From: Branchiostoma lanceolatum
Lineage: Eukaryota > Chordata > Leptocardii > Amphioxiformes > Branchiostomatidae
Direction of reading: 5' to 3'
DNA: 64,000 nt
Assembly (NCBI RefSeq): GCF_035083965.1
Contig: NC_089727.1
Span: 4,345,501-4,409,500 of the forward strand
Shown: positions 10,711 through 63,706 of the stretch, in pieces
Position numbering within the stretch: position 1 is the first letter of the stretch
Layout: each line of letters starts with the position of its first letter
Made by a program: the position numbers and the translations under genes
The notes under the pieces: generated by a model
Database searches by the model: none
Told to the model about the DNA's origin: nothing
What the model saw: the letters and a program-made list of their open reading frames with translations, nothing else

Positions 10711-13135
10711 TTAAAGTTCTTTGCCAAAAGTACATTTTCCAACAACAAGTCTTATTGTCCCTCTATTGTTGAGTTCCTGAAACGTTTCAAACTCCACTGG
10801 CATCTTGTGAGCTTTGTTGAACATTTTCCCGTCATAGTAATGGTACGGGACGCTCCGGTTCTTGTAGGTCGGCAGCGGGTAGAACCCGTACATGGAGATC
10901 CGGTCGCAGAACGTCGAGGCCAGGGCGAAGGTGTTCAGGCCGGTTGACGGGAGTCGAAACCGTTTGTGGAAGAGTTGCTTGTACATGCTGGGGGGTGGAG
11001 ATATTTGATAATGTAACAAGACAACACGACGTCGACGCCACGAAAAGCGACAAGTTAACCTTAACGCAATGCGACACAATCATCATCATAGCTTGTCGCT
11101 ATTTCTATATGCGACACAGAAATATAACAAATGGCCAGTTCGACTTTACGTTACGTAGACATGTTCCCTTAGTTTGCTTAGGCCATGTTGATTTGATTAT
11201 ATGGATGCCATCCTCTAGGGACCCCAAAACTGATGCAAGCGTGCGAATAAAAGAAGGTTTGGCAAAATAAGAAGTTACCTTCATTATTAAATCTACGTCG
11301 TCAGGAAGGATGAACAAAACTAAGCACACAAAGTATGGTGTATCGAAATATAGATTCTTCATTTTTTGTTCTTTCGAAACAAACTTCTTCTTTGACTTTG
11401 GAATTGACTTTGGCATTCTACAACATTGGTGTCCGTTTTCCGAAATATTTCTTTGGCAATTTACAGCATTTTTTTTTCTCATTTTGCAGCTGCTTTTATA
11501 CGTTTTACAGCATTTTTTTTTTTGAATGGACGAAAATTGATGCGCGCGCGGACGTCAACCATATAATCAAATCAACATTTTTCACTTTTCCTACTTTACA
11601 AGGCAAGTACTTACTACCCTTTGTTTCCCATGTAAGACTGGTGCGAAAACGCCGTCACAGCGTCGATGTTGTTCTCCTTGATGGCCTTGTCTATGGCCTG
11701 CATTTTCTTCTTGGACGGAGAGCCTGGAAGGGACAGCGAGTAGCTAAATATCATCCCTGGAGACTCTCCGAGACGGGCCAACGTGGCTTTTCTCTTCTTA
11801 CGTCTCAGACCGCCTGCAACTTGCCCCAGGCGTGCGCGGTTTATCGTGGTGAGGTTGGTGGTCTTCCCCACGTCCTTCGCGTAGGGAACAGTTGGCGGGA
11901 AATTGTTCCGAATGACGAACTCGTGCGCGTCGATCTCCGCGCCGCAGCCGCTGTCCAGCAGTATCCCCCCGTTTCCTATCAACGCGCATGTCCGGTAACG
12001 TTTGATGGGGGTGTGCGTGACGTCACAACGCTTTTTCGACTTGAGAAGTGTGAACGATTTTGTGTTGCATTTTTCCATGAAGACGTCCAGGTCTGAGAAA
12101 TCTATGATGTGTCTTCTCGGGGAAAAGTACTGCCTTGTGATTTGCCTGTATGGGAAATATCATAATAGATGACACGAGTCTTGATAACATCAAGTAACCA
12201 TCTTTACTAAAATGTTAATCTCCAAGTAGATTTTTAGGATGGCAAGACAGTATCCATAAGACGAAACAGTAGCCGGATTGGCCCTGGATACTGTGGCCCA
12301 ATGGGTACTGTCCTGCCAACCCAAAGATCTGCTTGGAGATTACTAAAATGTCATGAAAGCGTGAATGTTGGTGTAGATGGATATGATTGAAACAGCTCAG
12401 GAGTTAAAACGTATTTTGTCAAATTTAATCTTCCAAATGCCATACTATTAGGAAAACGACAGCATTTTTACAATAACGCCAAATCGCATGCAAAGAAAAC
12501 TTACGTCAAAGGTAGAACTTCTTTGCCACTTTCACAAATCCTTAGACAAAAACCTTTCAGAGATCGTCTGTAGAATTCGATAGATTATAAACTATAGATT
12601 GTTTACGTCTGTACTTTCCATGCTGTATATCAAAAGCAGCTGTATAAACTGTCCAGAGTAATGCTTCGGTCCCATTTCCAACCCGGGGCCCGGCCGGGCT
12701 GTTTGCAAAAACGAAACATAAAAAAATGCATATCAAGAAAATACACAAAAAATATGGTTAGGAGTATTCTTTATGTTTTGTGTCTTTTCTTGTCTTTTAT
12801 ATCATATTTTTCGTTCCAGCAAGCTGCCCGACCGGGCCCCGCTTTGGAAATGTGACCTAAGTATAACTTACTGTAGCTCCCGAACTGACGTCATGTTGAA
12901 ATGCGCAATGACGTCATCCATGACTCGGTCCTCCGGACTTCTAACCTCCATCGTCGTTTCAGAACTTTGTGTACTATTGTTTGATGACGTCAATCTCGTC
13001 ATGTTCAGAACACGGGGGATCATGACGGGGAACTCAAATGCACCTTTGTTGTCCCACACGACGTAAGAAGTCAGCAGGATCAGGCAGAACACAACCGCCG
13101 TGAACTCCTTCCAATCCACCATCGTTGCCTTAAAC
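10711..13135 (-). CDS. ST8Sia-type sialyltransferase (GT29), 373 aa
   Basis: Four coding exons on the minus strand join in phase: 12872-13122 (ATG at 13122), 12505-12567, 11615-12145 and 10711-10987 (TAA). The product is a type II Golgi protein of about 373 residues. A short cytoplasmic end is followed by a membrane anchor (FTAVVFCLILLTSYVVW, about residues 7-23) and a stem with NMT and NST glycosylation sequons. The sialyl motifs are all present: L (CALIGNGGILLDSGCG onward, about 158-202), S (LPSTGLNTFALASTFC, about 294-309), III (HYYD, 331-334) and VS (H342 and E347). Motifs L, S and III resemble alpha-2,8-sialyltransferases, which transfer sialic acid from CMP-Neu5Ac to sialylated glycans. 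The exact linkage cannot be read from sequence. The third exon ends at a double donor, so 372 or 373 residues are possible. The exon containing the ATG starts at 13135, after an acceptor. Confidence 0.9.
12218..12340. mobile_element. TA-flanked foldback with CTCCAAG..GCTTGGAG ends
   Basis: The ends ATCTCCAAGTAGAT and ATCTGCTTGGAGAT form an imperfect inverted repeat, flanked by TA. Partly complementary arms lie around GACAGTATCCA and TGGGTACTGTC. It shares only its terminal 12-14 bases with the foldbacks at 17464, 20289 and 24502. It lies in an intron of the sialyltransferase gene. Confidence 0.65.
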
Positions 13136-21710: not shown

Positions 21711-22904
21711 TCATCGGCCTCCTTCCGTCTGAACAGACGATGGCACGCGCCCTCTCCTGGAACAGGTTCTCCGGTGGCTGTGCAGTCCGATCCGCGAGTG
21801 GCAGTCCCTGCTGCAGCCCTCACAGATAAACGTTGTAGCGTGTTGAGCTGTTTGTGTCTTTTGTTTTTCTCTCTTTTCCTTTTGTAGTCTGTCACGATCC
21901 TCATCGGCCCTTTTCACCCCCGTTTTAACAGTGGATCTCCACAAGGTGCGGCTTAGGGCGATGCTCTCCCAGGACTCAATGTCAATGTATGCTGCCCTAA
22001 AGTCCCTCTTACAGGCGTCCTTGTATCGCAGATGAGGGCGGCCCTTCTTCCGGGTTCCACACTCAAGTTGACCATACAGTAGGTCCTTTGGTATGCGGTC
22101 ACGGTCCATGCGGCGTACATGGCCTAGCCATCTCAGGCGACGCTCACTGAGAATTGCGTACATACTCCTGGATCTTGACCTCCTGAGGACTTCGGAGTTT
22201 GTGACCCTGTCCATCCAGGTAATGCCCAGGATCCTTCGTAGGCACCTCATGTGGAAAGCGTTGAGTTTGGCTTCTTGTGCCGCGTAAGTTGTCCAGGTCT
22301 CGCTTCCATACAGAAGAGTGCCAAGGACACAGGCCTCGTACACCCTGAGCTTTGTTTGTACGGACAGATTTTTGTTTTCCCAGACTCTGAGTTTGAGTTT
22401 GGACATTACAGAAGCTGCTCTGCCGATTCTGGTGTTGATTTCTGTGTCAAGGGACAGGTTGTGGGTTACTGTCGATCCAAGGTAGGTAAACTTGTCGACT
22501 ACAACAAGCCTGGAGCCGTTGACTGTTATGAGAGGGGGGCGTGGTGCATTTTGAGCCATAACCACAGTTTTCTTTATACTCTTTATACTGATGGTTAATG
22601 AGAACTCATGGCATGCACTTGAAAAGCAATCTAGGAGGCGCTGAAGGCCTTGTTCTGAGTGACTAGCTAGTGCTGCGTCGTCAGCGAAAAGGAGCTCCCT
22701 AAGTAGGACACGGATTGTCTTGGTTTTTGCACGTAGGCGAGCCAGGTTGAATAGCTTGCCATCGTGACGGGTATGGATGTAGACACCGTCATCTGAGGAC
22801 CGGAAAGCATAGCTCAGAAGTAGAGAAAAGAAGATGCCAAAGAGCGTTGGAGCGAGCACGCAGCCCTGTTTGACTCCACTGAGGACTGGGAACGACTCTG
22901 ACGT
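21711..22904 (-). mobile_element. Non-LTR retrotransposon reverse transcriptase, 5'-truncated, open frame
   Basis: A single open frame of about 398 codons on the minus strand starts after a (GTGT)n/(GTCT)n junction near 22904 and ends with a stop at 21711. It reads through RT palm motifs: GVKQGCVLAPTLF just inside the start and LLFADDAALASHSEQGLQ with the FADD catalytic pair. Next come the thumb-like FTYLGSTV block, the SETWTTYAAQEAKLNAFHMR segment and the WLGHVRRMDRDRIPKDLLYG segment. The protein ends in a Cys/His cluster (CEGCSRDCHSRIGLHSHRRTC), a zinc-knuckle-like tail seen in some animal LINE proteins. The endonuclease and the first RT motifs are missing. No stop or frameshift interrupts the remnant. 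I cannot name the clade with confidence. Confidence 0.85.
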
Positions 22905-22937
22905 GTGTGTGTGTGTGTGTGTGTCACACTGTGTGTG

Positions 22938-22976
<39 letters not shown>

Positions 22977-22990
22977 TTGTGTGTTTGTGT
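22899..22990. repeat. (GT)n / (GTCT)n compound microsatellite
   Basis: GTGTGTGT followed by about nine GTCT units sits exactly at the 5' truncation point of the reverse transcriptase fragment. The bases after it resemble those after the pyrimidine tract at 16.95 kb. Confidence 0.9.
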
Positions 22991-23548
22991 TGCCGGACTA
23001 TTGTAGTCAGCATAACTCAAGATCCTCTGGATCATGGAGCTATGAGGTCTCCGAACTCTTGCTTGACTTGTCATGTGCTGTTTTCTGACTGATTTGGCAT
23101 TTCTGACTGCTATGGTGTTTTGGCGAGACATTACGTTTTTGGCAAACTATTTGGCTGTATTTCTTCCAGTTAGCACAGATTATGACAGAACACATATGTT
23201 GGGTCATCTTTCATGTCCTTTTGTACATGTACATATGTGTGCTTGCTGCTCATTTAGTTTCCAAATAACGCTGGTACATCTTTAACCCTTTCTGGAAACC
23301 ATTATGTATTTAGGCCAAGGACGCCGATTATTTGCATATAGGTCTAGTAGCAGGTGTTCTCGATAGCTATCAATTTTTTCTACATAGATATTATTAATAG
23401 AAGATGCGTGTGAAAATATATTGAAAACAAAGAAATCTCCCTTTACCACGCCCTGTTATACAAGTCACACTTAACGTTACATATCCATGTATCTCGCTGT
23501 ATACCCAGGAGACGTTACATCACATGGCACCCTAGCGTTAGATAAATG

Positions 23549-25770: not shown

Positions 25771-25982
25771 TTAAATAGCCCCGCCCATGCTCGTTACATC
25801 AGACCACGTGACATTGTTGCCTTACGTAAGGTTCAGTTCAGTGCAAGCGCAGCGACAGCCCAGGACGTTATACAAGTACCCCGGGTCAGCTTACATAAGG
25901 ATAGCCAGAACCGAACCCAGCTTCAGAACCAGTCTCATTCTCAGTTTGAGCCTTCCAGGGTGCTAGTCCACATCCACACACC
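25769..25982 (+). promoter_or_regulatory. LONRF promoter region
   Basis: Directly upstream of the LONRF start lie a TTTAAATA box at about 25769, a GC box GCCCCGCCC at 25778-25786 and an E-box CACGTG at 25805-25810. The 5' UTR is GC-richer than the flanking DNA and the ATG at 25983 sits in a good context (CACACCATGG). The transcription start is not marked by any unique signal. Confidence 0.45.
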
Positions 25983-35494
<9,512 letters not shown>

Positions 35495-55509: not shown

Positions 55510-56911
55510 ATGGCTGACACACGGACGACGCATGTAACGTACTACGGGTAAATTTTCAATTTCTCTGATTTCTTTGGCCGTCTGTTGGGACTTGTACACA
55601 TCCCAACGACAGATACAAATATCTTAACTTTTCCGGCGTTTATGTTTATATTGCATTTTCTCATTTGAAGGCAAATTCTTATGTACAATTTTGGGTGGGG
55701 AGGGGGGCACAACATCTCTCACTCGAGTGACATGTGATTTGATTGAAAAAGGGAAAATGTCGTATAATAATTAACATTACCTATCTTTCTAGCCTGAACT
55801 GCACTATTTGGTCGGATCCCCTTGATGTAATGTTGTCTAGATTGTATGTAGAACAACTTATTTTTGTTGCAAGCCCTAGCCTTTTGATGTGTATAATTCC
55901 ACGTTTATGACAAAACGTTGAATGAAAACATACAAAGCACTTTGCGTCTTTTGTCCATCATGTCTGTGGCCTCTGTGCAAATCAGGTCAATCATCTACAT
56001 GTATGTGATTATTAAACTATTTACAGTCACAAGTAAGTAGAGCAAAAAGTCAAGGAATCTGCAAACATTTTGTAGCCAACCAACTGAAGATGAAAAAAAT
56101 TCAAGAGGAACCTGGATAATTTTAATTCCAAAAACAACCTAAGAATACCAACTATGTAAAGAATACTAGTTCACATTGAATGAATCACACTGCATGTACT
56201 GATGATGTTATCCAATTCTGTATTTCAGCCCAGACCAAGACAACATCGGGCCCTTCAGGACACTTCTAGTCTTCACTCTCCTGATGGTGACAGCTCCCAT
56301 AAGCCTTTACTTCATGTCTAAGACAATAGTGTTTGAAGGTGGGTCACAATTACTGCATTGTGTAACAAATTGAGGTTTGCCAAATAACACTTGATCTACA
56401 TGTAGCAACTAGATAAAATTGGAAACTTTCAAGTTTCATCCAGGTGCTTGAGTAACTGTTATATTACTTACTACCTGGATGTCTAACCTTTATCAACCCA
56501 GTATTTATGTGTGAATACGGAGAAATAGTATTTTTTCTTAGTTGTTCTCTTTTGATCTTCCCGACCATTTTATTTTAGTGATTAGTCTACATTACAGGAA
56601 CAAGTGTTAACTGACGTAAACCATTGCTTTCTTTCTGTTTTACTTTAAATGCTATGATAAATGTAGTTCATGTATGCTCAACACAAATTGAATAGGTCTA
56701 TTTTATAGTCCAGGTCTCTAACTTTGAGAACGTTTTCTTTGGTTCATCTCCAGGTGTATTTGACGTGGATCCTCAGACTGCTAACATATACGGTGCCATT
56801 GTTGCCGTGGTTACGATACATCTCGTTCTGGCACTGGCTGTTTATGTGCTGTACGGAGACGACCTCGGCTTCAGGACAGTTGCACCACCTCCGAGCAAGA
56901 AGAAAGACTAA
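55510..56911 (+). CDS. VMA21: VMA21 V-ATPase assembly factor, isoform with proximal last exon, 101 aa
   Basis: Exons 55510-55547, 56229-56338 and 56754-56911 join in phase to 101 residues, exactly the length of human VMA21. The protein has two membrane spans, TLLVFTLLMVTAPISLYFMS and AIVAVVTIHLVLALAVYVLY, joined by a short lumenal loop with the family-typical IVFEG. VMA21 is an ER membrane chaperone that assembles the Vo sector of the vacuolar proton pump. This isoform ends PPPSKKKD, with lysines at -3 and -4, a canonical KKXX retrieval signal like that of the yeast protein. It shares exons 1 and 2 with the isoform ending at 57416. The exon 1/2 junction falls within a glycine codon. Confidence 0.9.
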
Positions 56912-57273
56912 CGATCATGTTTCAAGACTTTTCAACAGTAAGATTACTGCTCTTCTGTTCTGACTGTGGGATCAAGAAGCTGGGGACCGAGTGAGATCAC
57001 ACAGTGGATAACAGGAATGTTTTGATTCTAGGATACCCGCAGAAGACATTGACTAATGGGTTCATGATCGTCAACAGTTAAGGATACCCCATGCCCAGAC
57101 CATGATGGAATTTTATAAAATGGGGATTCAAACTAGTGTATACATGTTAAATTCCAGTTGTAAGCTGATAGCTGAAGGTCTTCAACTACCAAATATATTT
57201 CCATGCCAAAATCGTCATTTGAACTTCAGCATATCTGAACATGGACTTGACTGTCTTTCTCTGATCCCACCAG

Positions 57274-57416
57274 GAATGCTGTCTATGGAAGAGAACGATG
57301 CGTACTTCTACGGTGCGATAGTTGCTGTGGTGGTTGTTCACATCATCCTGGTCATGTTCGTGGTGGTGGCGTTCAGGGAAAAGCCAAAGGCAGGATTTCC
57401 ACTCAAACAGGACTAA
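57274..57416 (+). CDS. VMA21: VMA21 alternative last exon (distal), giving a 96-aa isoform
   Basis: After the acceptor CCCACCAG at 57273 an open exon of 143 nt has the same phase as the exon at 56754 and encodes a second version of membrane span 2: DAYFYGAIVAVVVVHIILVM onward, ending PLKQD. It is closer to vertebrate VMA21, which has YFYAAIVAVVAVH and ends KQD, than the proximal copy is. Spliced to 56229-56338 it gives 96 residues. The C-terminal KQD lacks the lysine at -4, so ER retrieval may differ between the two isoforms. The segment between the two exons (56912-57273) shows no intervening gene. It could in theory be a decayed copy, but it has no stops and full family conservation. Confidence 0.85.
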
Positions 57417-58472
57417 TTCACAGGAGAAATCAGATTGTTATCCTGGGAAATGCTTGCATAAGAGGACTTCTGTCAAAGGCTTCTGTGGGGAAAGGGCTAC
57501 ATGTCAGACTGGACAGTGAGTAGTATTGTAGATTTGAAATTGAATGATGTCTGTTTATCCATTCAAGCTTATCTGATTTCACACATGATGATGAGGTTTA
57601 GTAATAGGAGGGTTGAAATACATTAAAATTACACCATTTATCTGCACCAGGCAAGTGTCACAGGCTGGTTTTGTCATGGCACTGTGAAGGTAGATTTAAG
57701 AAATACTACTAGTAGTACTGTAACCTACCTGCACATTCAGGTACACTTTTACATGCATTAACCTGCATATGCAGCAGGTGGTATTTCAGGCCCTAAGATG
57801 AAACGTTTGTGCCTCCACATTTCAGTGTTTATGCAAACATATAACGTTACTGGTGCTTGTCTAATTTGAAGAGCAGTGAGACTTGATCAGCTTTGAGGTT
57901 ATGATGTAAATACTGTACATGTACGAATAGAATTGCATTGTGAAGGTATGGTATTGGCAGTCTTAACCAGTTGTAGATGTATACAATCAAGAATGTTTTA
58001 TTTATAATTTGCCCAATCAGATTTGATTTGTAAATGTACATGCACTTTGGGCCTGAATAGAAAGTGTGGTAGAACATTGACCCAAATTTCAGTACAAAAA
58101 TGATGTGTACTTGTTTTATAACTTGAAGGCAAAAACAATGTAATTTTGTCCCAAGTAAGCTGTTGGTTGTCAATGTAGCATTTGGAATAAGCAAAACTCT
58201 GATTTTGAAATCACAAAGTAGAAGTTAGCCCATCTGAAACATTTTGAAATAGAAGGAGCTTCTTGGAAAATGCATTTAGTGTAATCATGCCAAGTTTAAT
58301 TACAAGGCTATTTCTTCTTAACTTGGCTAGTATTTAGAACCAGATTAAGACTGAACTGAAGAACAATGTATAAAGCTACTATTCCATATTTGAAAGTAAC
58401 ATGGAAAGTTTGCTACCAGTCCTTTTGCCAATAACAAACTTTATACATTTTCAGGCTGATGGTGTAAGAGTA
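57417..58472 (+). other. VMA21 3' region
   Basis: No conserved coding sequence follows the distal stop. The stretch is probably 3' UTR then intergenic DNA converging on AMDHD2. I see no clear AATAAA within the first kilobase. Confidence 0.35.
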
Positions 58473-58627
58473 GCCTCCATAGCAGGCTCTAACCGGCCTT
58501 TTTGGGGGGCTAAATAATACACTTTTTGCAGCCAGCCCGTAACCATCAGCCACCCTGTAACTATCTGGTTGCAAAAAGTGTATTATTTAGCCCCCAAAGA
58601 AGGCGGATTAGAGCCTGCTATGGAGGC
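58473..58627. mobile_element. TA-flanked foldback MITE, sister of 23690-23843
   Basis: A 155-bp element with ends GCCTCCATAGCAGGCTCTAA and complement, flanked by TA on each side. Its left arm and loop are almost identical to the copy 35 kb away, pointing to recent activity. Confidence 0.85.
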
Positions 58628-59477
58628 TAGTGTAAGAGTGTTTTTCTAGTGTCATGTAACTGTTGAATGTACTGACATTGTGTATTCTCCCATACTGTAA
58701 GAAAAATACAACAAAAGATACAACTGCAGTGAGTTTCAGTTTGTTCCTTTAGCAATATTTATTTGCAATCACATCTGTCTCACAGATATAACACTGATTT
58801 CTGGCACCCAAGGCTAAAATACTTGCTGTGCACGAATAGAATTGTAGTTAACTTAGTACATAGACCTCTGTCCAATTTTCTTTATCATCTTGTCACAAAT
58901 ATACAAGAAAGGGGGTTCCATATCTGCTAGAAATGTTTTCAACACATAATTATAGTGAAATTGTTACAGTGTGGCCAGCAAGGTTTGTGGAAGAATGAAT
59001 ATAATACACAGAGCAGCACATAATAGCACCTAAAATGTTAAAATATGTCATATCAATTTCATTCACAACCATAATCAATCTTACATATCTTGATACCTTT
59101 GAATAATTCAGGTATGAGGATGGTGTCAAAATGGTTATGAGCAATCTATGATAACTTCTTTCACAGAAGATATCTTGATATGGTATTTATCTATTTAGGA
59201 ACAAAAGAAAAGTACACTAATCAGTGCATATATAGCTTATTGCTGAGGTTGTACTCGAATCTTTTTTTGGCATGTCTATATGACACTGCAGTTCTACATG
59301 GTTTTGACGCATCAAACTCAACAATTCTACTGCATGTCTTATCTTAAGGCCACAGTTTTGCTAGGCTCCTGTATTTCATAAGAATGGAATAAAGCGTTGA
59401 AAGTTCTGTGAAAGCAATTACTATGATATACATTTTGCCAAACAAAATCAAAATATCACTTTTTCTATCAAAAGTGC
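58628..59477 (-). other. AMDHD2 3' region
   Basis: No coding sequence. On the minus strand a possible AATAAA lies at about 58757 (TTTATT on the plus strand), which would give AMDHD2 a 3' UTR of about 0.7 kb. Confidence 0.35.
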
Positions 59478-62400
59478 TCAAACTATATCTTTAAATCCAC
59501 TGATACCCTTCCTTTGAACGCCACGTTTATCGTGGTTCCCCTTGACTTTGTCCCACACTAACTCCCCTGCAATGTACGTCGCCTGGACGTTCAACTCATC
59601 ATCGAGTAGGATAAAATCTGCATCAGAGTTGTAGTCCAGAGTCCCCTTCTGAGCTGCAATACCCAGCATCTCTGCTGGGTGGCGTGTGCCGGCCTCCAGG
59701 GCTTCCTCTGTGGAACAGTTTGTCGCCTCTAGAAAGTGTTTGACACACTTGTCCATTGTGACGATGCTGAAAAGGGAAAAGGACAAAAAATTTGGTGAGC
59801 AAAAGGGAACCATAAAGGACTGAAAATCATGGCAAAATAAATATCAGGAACATCGTGAAAGAAGCAGCACTACTGTACTAGTACTTTGTACAAGACATTG
59901 TGACGAGAATATATGCTGGAAATATCACAGATTATGAAGGATTTGTGTAACTTGTTTAAGACTATTGAAGAACATTTTGCATTGAACTCCCAAGAAAATC
60001 TTTGAAAGGCGTGCAAGTTTTCACTGAAGAGGTCAAATATACAGACAGATGTACCAGTAACTCAACATGGCCCTGTACAATAATGTCAAGCCTACAGCTT
60101 ACAGTCTTCTAATAAAGTTATTGGAAATGCTGTCAAAATTTCAAAGTGATAGAAGATTGAAAGAAAGTTTTAAATTATGTGAAGAAACTATCAGAATTCA
60201 GGAGGTAGGAATTGAAAAATATTTTTCTAGGGGTCTTGGAAAATTGATATCTTTACAAGAGAAGGGAAAAGGTCTTGGAGTTTCAAGCCTAACACAGGCT
60301 GACCTACAGCTACTAATACTTGTATTAGACTGCTGCCTATCACAGATGCTGGATCTTGAATATTTGCTTCTTATATACAGAGAGTACAAGAACTTCTGAT
60401 CCATCAGAGATCTCTGAACATCATTAGGGCATGGATGGCTTATTGTACCTTCCAATGAGAGTTTTGGTCCCCAGAACAAAAGCCCTGCCCTCGGGCGTCA
60501 CCTCAAACTCTTGTTGCCCAACTTTGTAGCTGCCGATCGGTAAACCCATGGCCGTGATGGCATCAGTGACCAGCACAATACCTGTAGTGTTCATATGTAA
60601 CACGCACAGGATCAGTACTGGTACTAGGGAAGGAGGGCTATGTAAACCTTTCTGATGCTGGCCCCAATGTTAAACTAAAGCTGAGCATCATGCCATATTT
60701 CATAGTGACTTGGGACATTAAAAATTGCAGTTTACCAAAGAGAAGGATTGAACAAAATGCTGTGGACCATTTTTGAAGAGGAATTATTGTAAAACAACTG
60801 ACTAAAACAACACGAGATTTATTTTGTTCCCTTGCTGCAAATTTTCTTTAATAAATGGGCTGGGGTTGGAATCAGTAAAACAACAGGAAGGAAAAATAGG
60901 GTACAGGATGATGTTTTAGATCCACACCACATATGGCTGTCATGTTCAGCTGTCAGTCATTCTTGGTGCAGGCATCAGAAAAGCAACGGATGGCACACAC
61001 AAACAGCTTAGGGTGTCCCCAGAACATGGAGCATGATTGTGTCAAGTGGAGTTCAGGTTGTAGTGTCATTAATGGTCACCTGTTAGAACGGTACATGTAG
61101 GTAGCCAGTAGATGCAGTCCTAAATGGATTTTGTATGAAAACAATTTTGTTTGCTTTGAAAGAAATGCAACAATGCGACAGCTGTAAAATTCTGTGACAA
61201 CTTTTTGGGAGAAAAGAGTTGAATGGTGAGTTTTGGCTGTAATGGCTTAACACCAGTGCTCCATACAATGGGAGACCCCTGCCTGTTGACAATGGTACCT
61301 TCCACAGAGGGTATTGGTTCCTGAGATGCAGGCTCGACCGTCTGACGTAACATCGACATCTAACTGTCCGATTTTGTGCGTTCCTATTGGGAACCCCATG
61401 GCGTTGATCGCATCGGTGACGACCATCAGCCCTGCGAAGTGTTATGGCATGTACATTTGTGTACAAGAAATACATTTGAACAAAAAATTGTCAGGACAAC
61501 AATAATTCCAAGACAATGGTCGTTTGGCCAATCTAACTTAAGTTTCCAGTTCCAACAATGAAAACAAAATAATGTGTATAGCTGTTTATTGTCAGTTTTA
61601 TAACAATGTTGAACCTTACGAGCCAGAATGACACTGGTTAGTTGTAGATAAATATGTATGGTATGAAAGCAAGCTGGTTAGTTGTGACTTTTAAAAAGTG
61701 ATCTTTCACCATTGCAGGGAAGCACATGAAAAGGGAAATTTTGTTTAAAAGAGGTTTTAATGCATGTGTAGTGTGTAGTAGCAGTGAATACTTCTGCATG
61801 ATGAAATGCTTGTTAGAATGTTAGGATGATAAAAAATGACAATGAATGACATGAGAAAGCAACATGGCATGGAATGATACTGGTTAGTCGATGTGATAGA
61901 AAGACAATGACATGTTATATGGTAGACAACAACAAGATAAGGTCATATTGCAGGGTAGAAATATACATGCAGTTCATTCTTGGACTTTCTCAAATATTTT
62001 GGCACACTTGCAGTTTAAGAGACATTAGAAAGTGCTGAAATAAGCAACTGACTAAACACAAAGCAGATACCCAAGACTTTCTAATGTCAAATCTCTCTTA
62101 CCATTAATTCCTAAAATATATGAGGGTAAGTCAGAATGAAATGTCTTTTGTATCATAGCAGGTTCATTTTTGTATAAAATTAGTTGAAGTTTATCCTAAC
62201 TTACCCTCATACAATGAGAAGAAATGATGTTAGAGTCTTCTGTGATCTAATAATCATATTACAGTGCATTGTTTGTACTGAAAACTGACTTCTAAATGAA
62301 GGATGCCTAACCTTGTGGATGAGCTCTGTAAGCTATCCTTAAGGCAGCGGGGTCTGTGTGGATACCGTCAGCGATCATCCCGTAGAACAGGGTCACTCCT

Positions 62401-63706
62401 TTGGGAATCTTGTGGCTTGTCAGCAGCCCAACAATCCCTGGGTCTCTGTGGTGGAACTGTGGATAGAAACAGGCATTCTATCTTTTGGCATCATTATTAC
62501 CAAGGTAAGCAAAAGACAATACGCTACAATATCATTACCATACTGGAGACATGTAGATGATGGGACAATAATATTACAGATTGAATCTTTCTGCGTAATT
62601 TTCGTTGTGTGAGACATTTTCTTCAAATGTGCATTTTGCTAGTCTCTACTTGTTTAAGACTTTGAGCATTTTTGAAAATGGGTAAAGAAATGTGGCATTT
62701 TCTACCAGTATTACTACGTGTACAAGCACTCTTTTTTTTATATCTCATATTTTTTTTCCTCTCTCCCTTCTCTTTCAAACCAGATTGGTCTGTCTTATTC
62801 ATTGTGTTAAACAATGTACTTACCGGTCCCATGGCGTTAAACAGGTGGGTAATACAGGTGGCACCAGCCTTCACTGCTGCCTCTGCCTGGGACAGGTTAG
62901 CAGAGGAATGTCCTACATTGCAAACAATGAATTAACAATCTTAAACGAGTTTAAACTGTAATTTCCAACACAAAAAATTGGACTTACCCAAATTTTCGAC
63001 CGTACGACATCGGTCTTTGTCAAGGAATGATCCATCCACCGCTGGGGTGACGTCACGTTATGCAGATAGCACACGTGACTCCGTGAGTAGTGGATCGTAA
63101 GTATTGAATTAACAAATTACTTTATCAAGAAAGTTGAAACTTGTATGACATTCAGTAAAAACTTTTCCCAATAGAAATACTGCAAACAAGTAACAAGATA
63201 ATTTATCAAGAAAGTTGAAACTTGTATGAATTTTGTTTTTAAATCATCCTGGTCAGAGAAACATTGTAAATCAATAACAAAGTCCATTATCAAGAAAGTT
63301 GCAACTTGTATGAAATTCAACACAAACTGTCTTGTCACTAAATCAAGACGCTGACTCTAGGGACCTCCATCTTTGCTGTGTTATGCTATGCTGCTGTACT
63401 GTGCTGTACTGTACTGTCACGCAGAGGAAGCTTACTTTTCTCCCTAAATGTTGACAGGTGACAAACCTGCCCAGTGATTCTCCACAGAATACCTACCCAC
63501 AGAAACTCTGATGTTCCTTTTGACGAGTTGCTTGATGATGTCAGACGAATGCTCCAATTCAGGTGCAATGGTGAAGAGCTTGACACCATCCAGGGTACTG
63601 TAGGTCTCCATCACATCATCCCAGCCCTGGCGGAACTTCTTAAGGTACTTTTCTGGATGAGCTCCCTTCTTGTCTTTGCTGATGAAGGGCCCCTCAATAT
63701 GTATTC
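59478..63706 (-). CDS. AMDHD2: AMDHD2, N-acetylglucosamine-6-phosphate deacetylase (3' part, partial)
   Basis: Exons on the minus strand, in transcript order: 63497-63706, 62824-62912, 62312-62456, then either 61299-61431 or 60449-60581, then 59478-59766 (stop). The enzyme removes acetate from GlcNAc-6-phosphate to give GlcN-6-phosphate and limits the hexosamine pathway. Family landmarks: [19 protein letters not shown] (metal-site Glu), [14 protein letters not shown] and THLFNAMGP (metal-site His), [12 protein letters not shown] and [17 protein letters not shown] (substrate pocket), VTDAI (catalytic Asp) in both alternative exons, and [19 protein letters not shown] near the end. All junctions keep phase. 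The first exons lie beyond the right edge. The C-terminus extends about 15 residues beyond the last ELVW-like block, as a basic tail. Confidence 0.93.
60449..60581 (-). CDS. AMDHD2: AMDHD2 alternative active-site exon, version A (downstream)
   Basis: A 133-nt exon with AG and GT borders encodes [17 protein letters not shown] and continues to GTKTLIG. It contains the catalytic Asp of the TDA motif and the GTKTL loop that lines the substrate site. It is closer to the vertebrate sequence (VLVTDAI, GQQE, GTKTL) than version B. The two versions are identical at 26 of 45 residues. The plus-strand ORFs across it are antisense shadows. Confidence 0.9.
61299..61431 (-). CDS. AMDHD2: AMDHD2 alternative active-site exon, version B (upstream)
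   Basis: A 133-nt exon, same length, same phase and same borders as version A, encodes [17 protein letters not shown] and continues to GTNTLCG. The catalytic Asp is kept; neighbours differ (Lys to Asn in GTKTL, Leu to Phe after AMG, Cys near the end). It has no stop or frameshift. Its use with version A in one transcript would break the frame, so the pair behaves as mutually exclusive. Confidence 0.9.

Follow-up and report, generated by a model that had tools for sequence, protein, structure and literature searches.

The gene for N-acetylglucosamine-6-phosphate deacetylase (AMDHD2) of the amphioxus Branchiostoma very probably carries a pair of mutually exclusive tandem exons that gives rise to two forms of the enzyme. 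The 3' part of the gene lies on the minus strand at the end of the window, i.e., the whole stretch of 64,000 nucleotides that was analyzed. A tandem exon duplication inside the gene would have produced two alternative 45-codon cassettes, each predicted to encode barrel strand 8, with the aspartate that serves as the catalytic base, and the complete three-stranded active-site lid; judging from the reading frame, a productive mRNA would take exactly one of them. Because the zinc site, the sugar and phosphate contacts, and the dimer residues are, by alignment, common to both forms, the two enzymes should catalyze the same reaction, GlcNAc-6-phosphate deacetylation, with lids that differ in sequence, and they probably differ in turnover, affinity, or tissue- or stage-dependent regulation. 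Any misspliced transcripts would be expected to fall to nonsense-mediated decay.

Other metabolic enzymes are known to have mutually exclusive exons that arose by tandem duplication, including ketohexokinase (KHK exons 3a/3c, which swap a 45-residue segment) and pyruvate kinase (PKM exons 9/10). Exons 4a/4b of OGDH are described as such a pair in the available text of PMC7969005. AMDHD2 resembles KHK, PKM, and OGDH in that two homologous exons occupy one interval, of which one per mRNA would be taken so as to swap a functional segment of the enzyme; it differs from them in that the enzyme is a deacetylase with a TIM-barrel fold whose cassette comprises the catalytic base and the lid and in that the pair is a candidate recognized by sequence. 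The preliminary description of this DNA knew of no account of such a pair in AMDHD2, and our literature search, by titles and abstract openings, likewise found no description of an alternative copy of this segment in AMDHD2 or NagA. The pair is a well-supported addition to the known kind of mutually exclusive tandem exons, with an unusually clear meaning in terms of structure, in an enzyme for which no described case was found.

Structure of the exon pair

The exons of this part of the gene, with residues in human numbering as aligned to human AMDHD2 (7nut), are as follows.

63497..63706, minus strand: constant exon ending in RVSVG, with the metal ligand Glu (human E143) and Ala154
62824..62912, minus strand: constant exon HSSANLSQ...HLFNAMGP, with the zinc ligands H211 (its first whole codon) and H232 and the phosphate contacts N235/A236
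62312..62456, minus strand: constant exon FHHRDPG...RAHPQ, with the partner-subunit contacts H242/R243, H272, and the dimer residue I280; donor at 62311
61299..61431, minus strand: alternative exon B, 133 nt, 45 residues (end residues completed by the adjoining exons)
60582..61298, minus strand: intron separating alternative exons B and A, 717 nt
60449..60581, minus strand: alternative exon A, 133 nt, 45 residues, 45/45 identical to the database protein P0017
59478..59766, minus strand: last coding exon, constant, ending in FKDIV and the stop codon

The N-terminal part of the protein is encoded outside these exons, presumably beyond the end of the window. Among the matches listed, the best protein match was P0017, "N-acetylglucosamine-6-phosphate deacetylase-like isoform X2," from a Branchiostoma floridae x Branchiostoma record, whose second parent we take to be japonicum. 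The gene in the window is identical to it at 135/147 residues upstream of the alternative exon, at all 45 residues of exon A, and at 73/76 residues just downstream, and it therefore comes from a Branchiostoma that is related to, but not the same as, that of the record. Profile scores above the curated cutoffs place the gene in the AMDHD2 family: for PF01979 (cutoff, 25 bits), the B isoform of the window scored 55.5 bits and P0017 scored 83.7 bits, and for TIGR00221 (cutoff, 225.65), P0017 scored 274.6, while the part encoded in the window, which excludes the N terminus, scored below the cutoff at 209.7 (A) and 205.5 (B). In each isoform, 264/287 residues could be aligned to the human enzyme (AMDHD2, 7nut; E = 1.8e-106 for A and 2e-104 for B).

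Exons A and B each measure 133 nt, with intact AG/GT borders and no stop codons, and are identical at 26/45 residues and 85/133 nucleotides. Both are entered in phase 1 and left in phase 2, the last codon being split AG|C. With exon A alone or exon B alone, the frame is open to the stop codon across all four proposed junctions (62312 to 61431, 62312 to 60581, 61299 to 59766, and 60449 to 59766), and with both exons or neither, the frame shifts and stops appear. A productive mRNA thus has to contain one, and only one, of the two exons. The pair consequently shows the hallmarks of mutually exclusive tandem exons, namely, adjoining homologues of equal length and phase whose joint inclusion or joint omission is unproductive. 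When the window was searched with exon A (tblastn), exon B was recovered at E = 1.8e-12, a likeness well above the level of chance, and the next match had an E value of 1.1, so that the matches listed for the window included no further copy. The preliminary description had assigned the gene to AMDHD2, had reported two stop-free exons of 133 nt with AG/GT borders and 26/45 identical residues, and had argued that the frame demands exactly one of them; coordinates, counts, gene assignment, and frame argument were all confirmed, and only its "phase 0-compatible" exit was in error.

The predicted exchangeable segment

The available text of PMC8970586 (eLife, 2022) describes, in human AMDHD2, a flexible three-stranded sheet that is inserted after barrel strand 8 and forms a putative active-site lid, and it identifies Asp294 as the likely catalytic base, the D294A mutant being inactive. 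When the residue positions given there are mapped onto the amphioxus gene by alignment, E143, A154, H211, H232, N235, A236, H242, R243, H272, and I280 all fall in constant exons. D294 is the only mapped human residue inside the alternative exon, and both copies have it within a TDA motif, in agreement with the earlier proposal that this segment carries the catalytic TDA aspartate. Altogether, 11/11 mapped zinc, substrate, dimer, and catalytic residues match the human enzyme in both isoforms. The amphioxus proteins therefore resemble human AMDHD2 and NagA (7NUT/7NUU) in the 264/287 aligned residues and the 11 mapped residues kept, and they differ from these in that the alternative segments are one residue longer at the lid turn.

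The extent of the swapped segment was taken from a structure model of P0017, which represents the exon A form (22 sequences; mean pLDDT, 80.8, with values of <50 at residues 330 to 332). The alternative exon corresponds to residues 322 to 366, over which strands are modeled at 323 to 326, 338 to 342, 345 to 349, 354 to 357, and 363 to 366, and the next helix begins at residue 370; the exon thus begins shortly before strand 8 and stops shortly before the next helix. The exon is accordingly predicted to be a clean cassette made up of barrel strand 8, on which the catalytic Asp sits, and the three-stranded lid, with the three middle modeled strands being equated with the human lid by position rather than by superposition. 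Of the 19 residues that differ between A and B, the lid (exon positions 17 to 36) accounts for 11 and the first strand for 3.

It was suggested earlier that the two enzymes have different pocket residues, for example, K versus N in the GTxTL motif. We rejected this as the specificity residue: among the relatives compared, the x position is occupied by K, N, H, R, T, S, Q, E, or D (N is found in the lone protein listed for a fish, P0038), and the K/N site is a poor candidate because it is so free to vary. The ten other residues mapped from the available text of PMC8970586 are constant. The lid as a whole is a better candidate for a specificity switch.

Such a switch might concern the acyl-sugar that is accepted, e.g., N-glycolyl- versus N-acetyl-glucosamine-6-phosphate. 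The lid borders the active site, and AMDHD2 has been reported to take part in N-glycolylneuraminic acid breakdown (PMC8970586, available text); against this, the mapped sugar-contact residues are constant, and the K/N site varies as described above. We therefore consider a changed acyl-sugar choice unlikely and prefer two enzymes that share one reaction and are tuned differently. If so, the gene would offer a natural swap of the catalytic strand and lid with the metal site and sugar contacts held fixed, which amounts to a ready-made experiment on lid function. In the hexosamine pathway, AMDHD2 catalyzes the reverse step, and it limits UDP-GlcNAc (PMC8970586, in the part available). The exon pair would also provide that pathway with a point of control by splicing, none having been reported for AMDHD2 in the literature searched.

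Age, maintenance, and probable use of the two copies

Exons A and B resemble different relatives. Mean identity to the vertebrate group (60 segments, grouped by exclusion) was 0.593 for A versus 0.493 for B, and mean identity to the arthropod-like group (12 segments) was 0.617 for B versus 0.534 for A; the named rows that were looked at came from beetles, vertebrates, one hemichordate, and amphioxus. The best tree, built from 30 segments hand-picked from 77 aligned rows with the insert column left out, separates A from B with weak support (77/66), and A and B were joined in 0/200 bootstrap trees. These observations would fit an exon pair that predates the chordates and goes back to early bilaterians, of which vertebrates kept the A-type lid and arthropods the B-type lid, with amphioxus still switching between the two. 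If this were true, the AMDHD2 lids found in different phyla would be alternative settings of a single ancestral switch in splicing that controlled hexosamine-pathway output. We judge such an age to be quite unlikely. The tree is based on 44 columns, and a tree in which A and B are held together is not rejected (p-AU = 0.268). In addition, among the 77 rows, A, B, and P0017 are the only ones in which a PIG motif goes with a lid turn that is longer by exactly one residue: the hemichordate P0082 has four inserted residues at this turn, the other 73 rows have none, and P0138, which is also 45 residues long, owes its length to an insert at another place. Furthermore, P0137 combines an A-like half with a B-like half, as an unduplicated ancestor would. 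We therefore favor a duplication that arose in the cephalochordate line.

A protein fragment, P0016, seems to include a translated intron between HYDG and GLILVTDAI. The alternative exons of amphioxus have their upstream border at this very position, which suggests that the intron position may be old.

Both copies appear to be under purifying selection. In a comparison of the A and B copies within one genome, with which a recent loss of use of one copy would be compatible, the great majority of differences were silent: pS was 0.772 (saturated), pN was 0.217, and dN was 0.256, and identity at codon positions 1, 2, and 3 was 33/45, 39/45, and 15/45, respectively. When exon A was mutated neutrally in simulations to an equal nucleotide distance, at least 26 identical residues were retained in 3/20,000 runs (mean, 17.5). 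The open frame alone says little, because 35% of the neutral runs were stop-free. Relaxed selection on one copy (dN/dS near 1) had been named in the preliminary description as an outcome that would speak against two enzymes; this between-copy test instead gave a purifying signature.

Conservation was assessed against relatives drawn from the best 120 of 1,645 proteins, with 139 protein records, 6 of which were left out of the count (P0001, which is off-frame, and 5 without the segment pattern). In 17 columns of the segment, conservation was at least 95% among 75 distinct relative segments, which include the amphioxus P0017 that is identical to A; exon A keeps all 17, and exon B, which has F in place of L at exon position 14, keeps 16. 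At the 19 positions that differ, counted over 74 segments with P0017 left out, the states private to A are at exon positions 21, 26, 30, 31, 37, and 43, and those private to B are at 10, 14, and 30. At 17 of the 19, the B state is either found in other segments (16 positions) or stands beside an equally private A state (1 position). Both copies thus seem to have diverged, and neither looks dead.

Two bird gene models in this set, P0039 and P0018, contain exact repeats: in the penguin model, the AMDHD2 segment with GLVLVTDAIAGMGL recurs unchanged, and in the crow model, a segment upstream does so. This suggests assembly or gene-model errors rather than alternative exons.

It is decidedly unlikely that exon B is decaying or unused and that exon A alone is spliced in, as it is in the known amphioxus protein. 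In favor of this, only exon A has been seen in an amphioxus protein (the database representative P0017), and exon B has both the L-to-F replacement in a nearly invariant column and a weak donor. The weak donor, however, is common to exon A, and a decaying copy is difficult to reconcile with the purifying signature, the intact borders and frame, the retained catalytic TDA, and the 17/19 positions at which the B state is seen elsewhere or the A state is just as private. Searches for exon B over proteins of ~158 to 502 and 47 to 149 amino acids, consisting of 90%-identity cluster representatives, gave 15 and 3 matches, respectively, which were beetle and other proteins, and found no amphioxus protein or transcript with exon B. 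This negative result carries little weight because representatives at 90% identity would hide an isoform that differs in 19 residues; the P0017 cluster holds 22 sequences, which could include exon B forms, and the "isoform X2" label of P0017 implies at least one other predicted isoform. We infer that exon B is used and that one gene probably yields two differently tuned enzymes.

How the choice between A and B is made may be approached through the splice sites. The intron between the two exons, at 717 nt, is too long for their splice sites to exclude each other simply by steric hindrance, so crowding is an unlikely means of keeping one exon out. By a rough matrix, the donors of the alternative exons scored 0.1 and 0.5 versus 2.2, 3.2, and 6.2 for three constant exons. 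Pyrimidines in the acceptors numbered 11/18 for B and 9/18 for A, and three constant exons had 11, 13, and 17; only the A acceptor thus falls below all three. T counts were 4 and 5 for the alternative exons versus 9, 7, and 11. These values are weakly suggestive of regulated exons.

Competing RNA structure was considered as the means of choice and is not supported by the pairing observed. Intron pairing was compared in a single species in three comparisons of 12 shuffles each, and the strongest was rerun with 100 shuffles; the best intron pair (-38.0 kcal/mol), which had seemed suggestive against 12 shuffles, was matched by 8/100. The amphioxus gene resembles the Dscam type of exclusive splicing, as portrayed in the accessible part of PMC6071210, in that one exon would be picked from homologous neighbors, and it differs from that type in that these comparisons showed no significant intron-intron pairing. 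The reading frame together with nonsense-mediated decay could enforce exclusivity instead of RNA pairing.

Under a last reading, the pair would tune the amount of enzyme, with inclusion of both exons or neither acting as a regulated, unproductive form of splicing through which AMDHD2 would fall and UDP-GlcNAc would rise, the difference between the proteins being minor; there are premature stops in both off-states, and AMDHD2 knockout in mouse cells raises UDP-GlcNAc (PMC8970586, available text), yet a poison exon needs no coding conservation and A and B keep their protein sequence, which makes this reading highly improbable.

Other features of the window

The convergent neighbor of AMDHD2 is VMA21 (V-ATPase assembly factor; 56229-57416, plus strand), with PF09446 scores of 61.3 and 64.4 bits versus a cutoff of 29.5. 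Its last exon, too, is present in two homologous versions, which share the entry phase and have a stop codon each; their tails, KKKD versus LKQD, could differ as endoplasmic reticulum retrieval signals. These exons and the other features observed are as follows.

56754-56911, plus strand: VMA21 last exon 1, GVFDVDPQTANIYGAIVAVV...PPPSKKKD
57274-57416, plus strand: VMA21 last exon 2, GMLSMEENDAYFYGAIVAVV...FPLKQD
21711-22997, minus strand: open frame of 428 codons with a reverse transcriptase domain (PF00078)
25950-26633, plus strand: RING finger with a weak TPR match
34967-35494, plus strand: LON substrate-binding domain
11614-12159, minus strand: open frame with a sialyltransferase domain (PF00777)

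The open frame with the PF00078 domain is likely a retroelement remnant. The RING finger and LON features look to us like two parts of one gene, presumably of the LONRF type. Downstream of AMDHD2, at approximately 58470 to 58630, an imperfect inverted repeat, CTAGCCTCCATAGCAGGCTCTAA and its complement, was seen by eye and is perhaps a foldback or MITE-like element.
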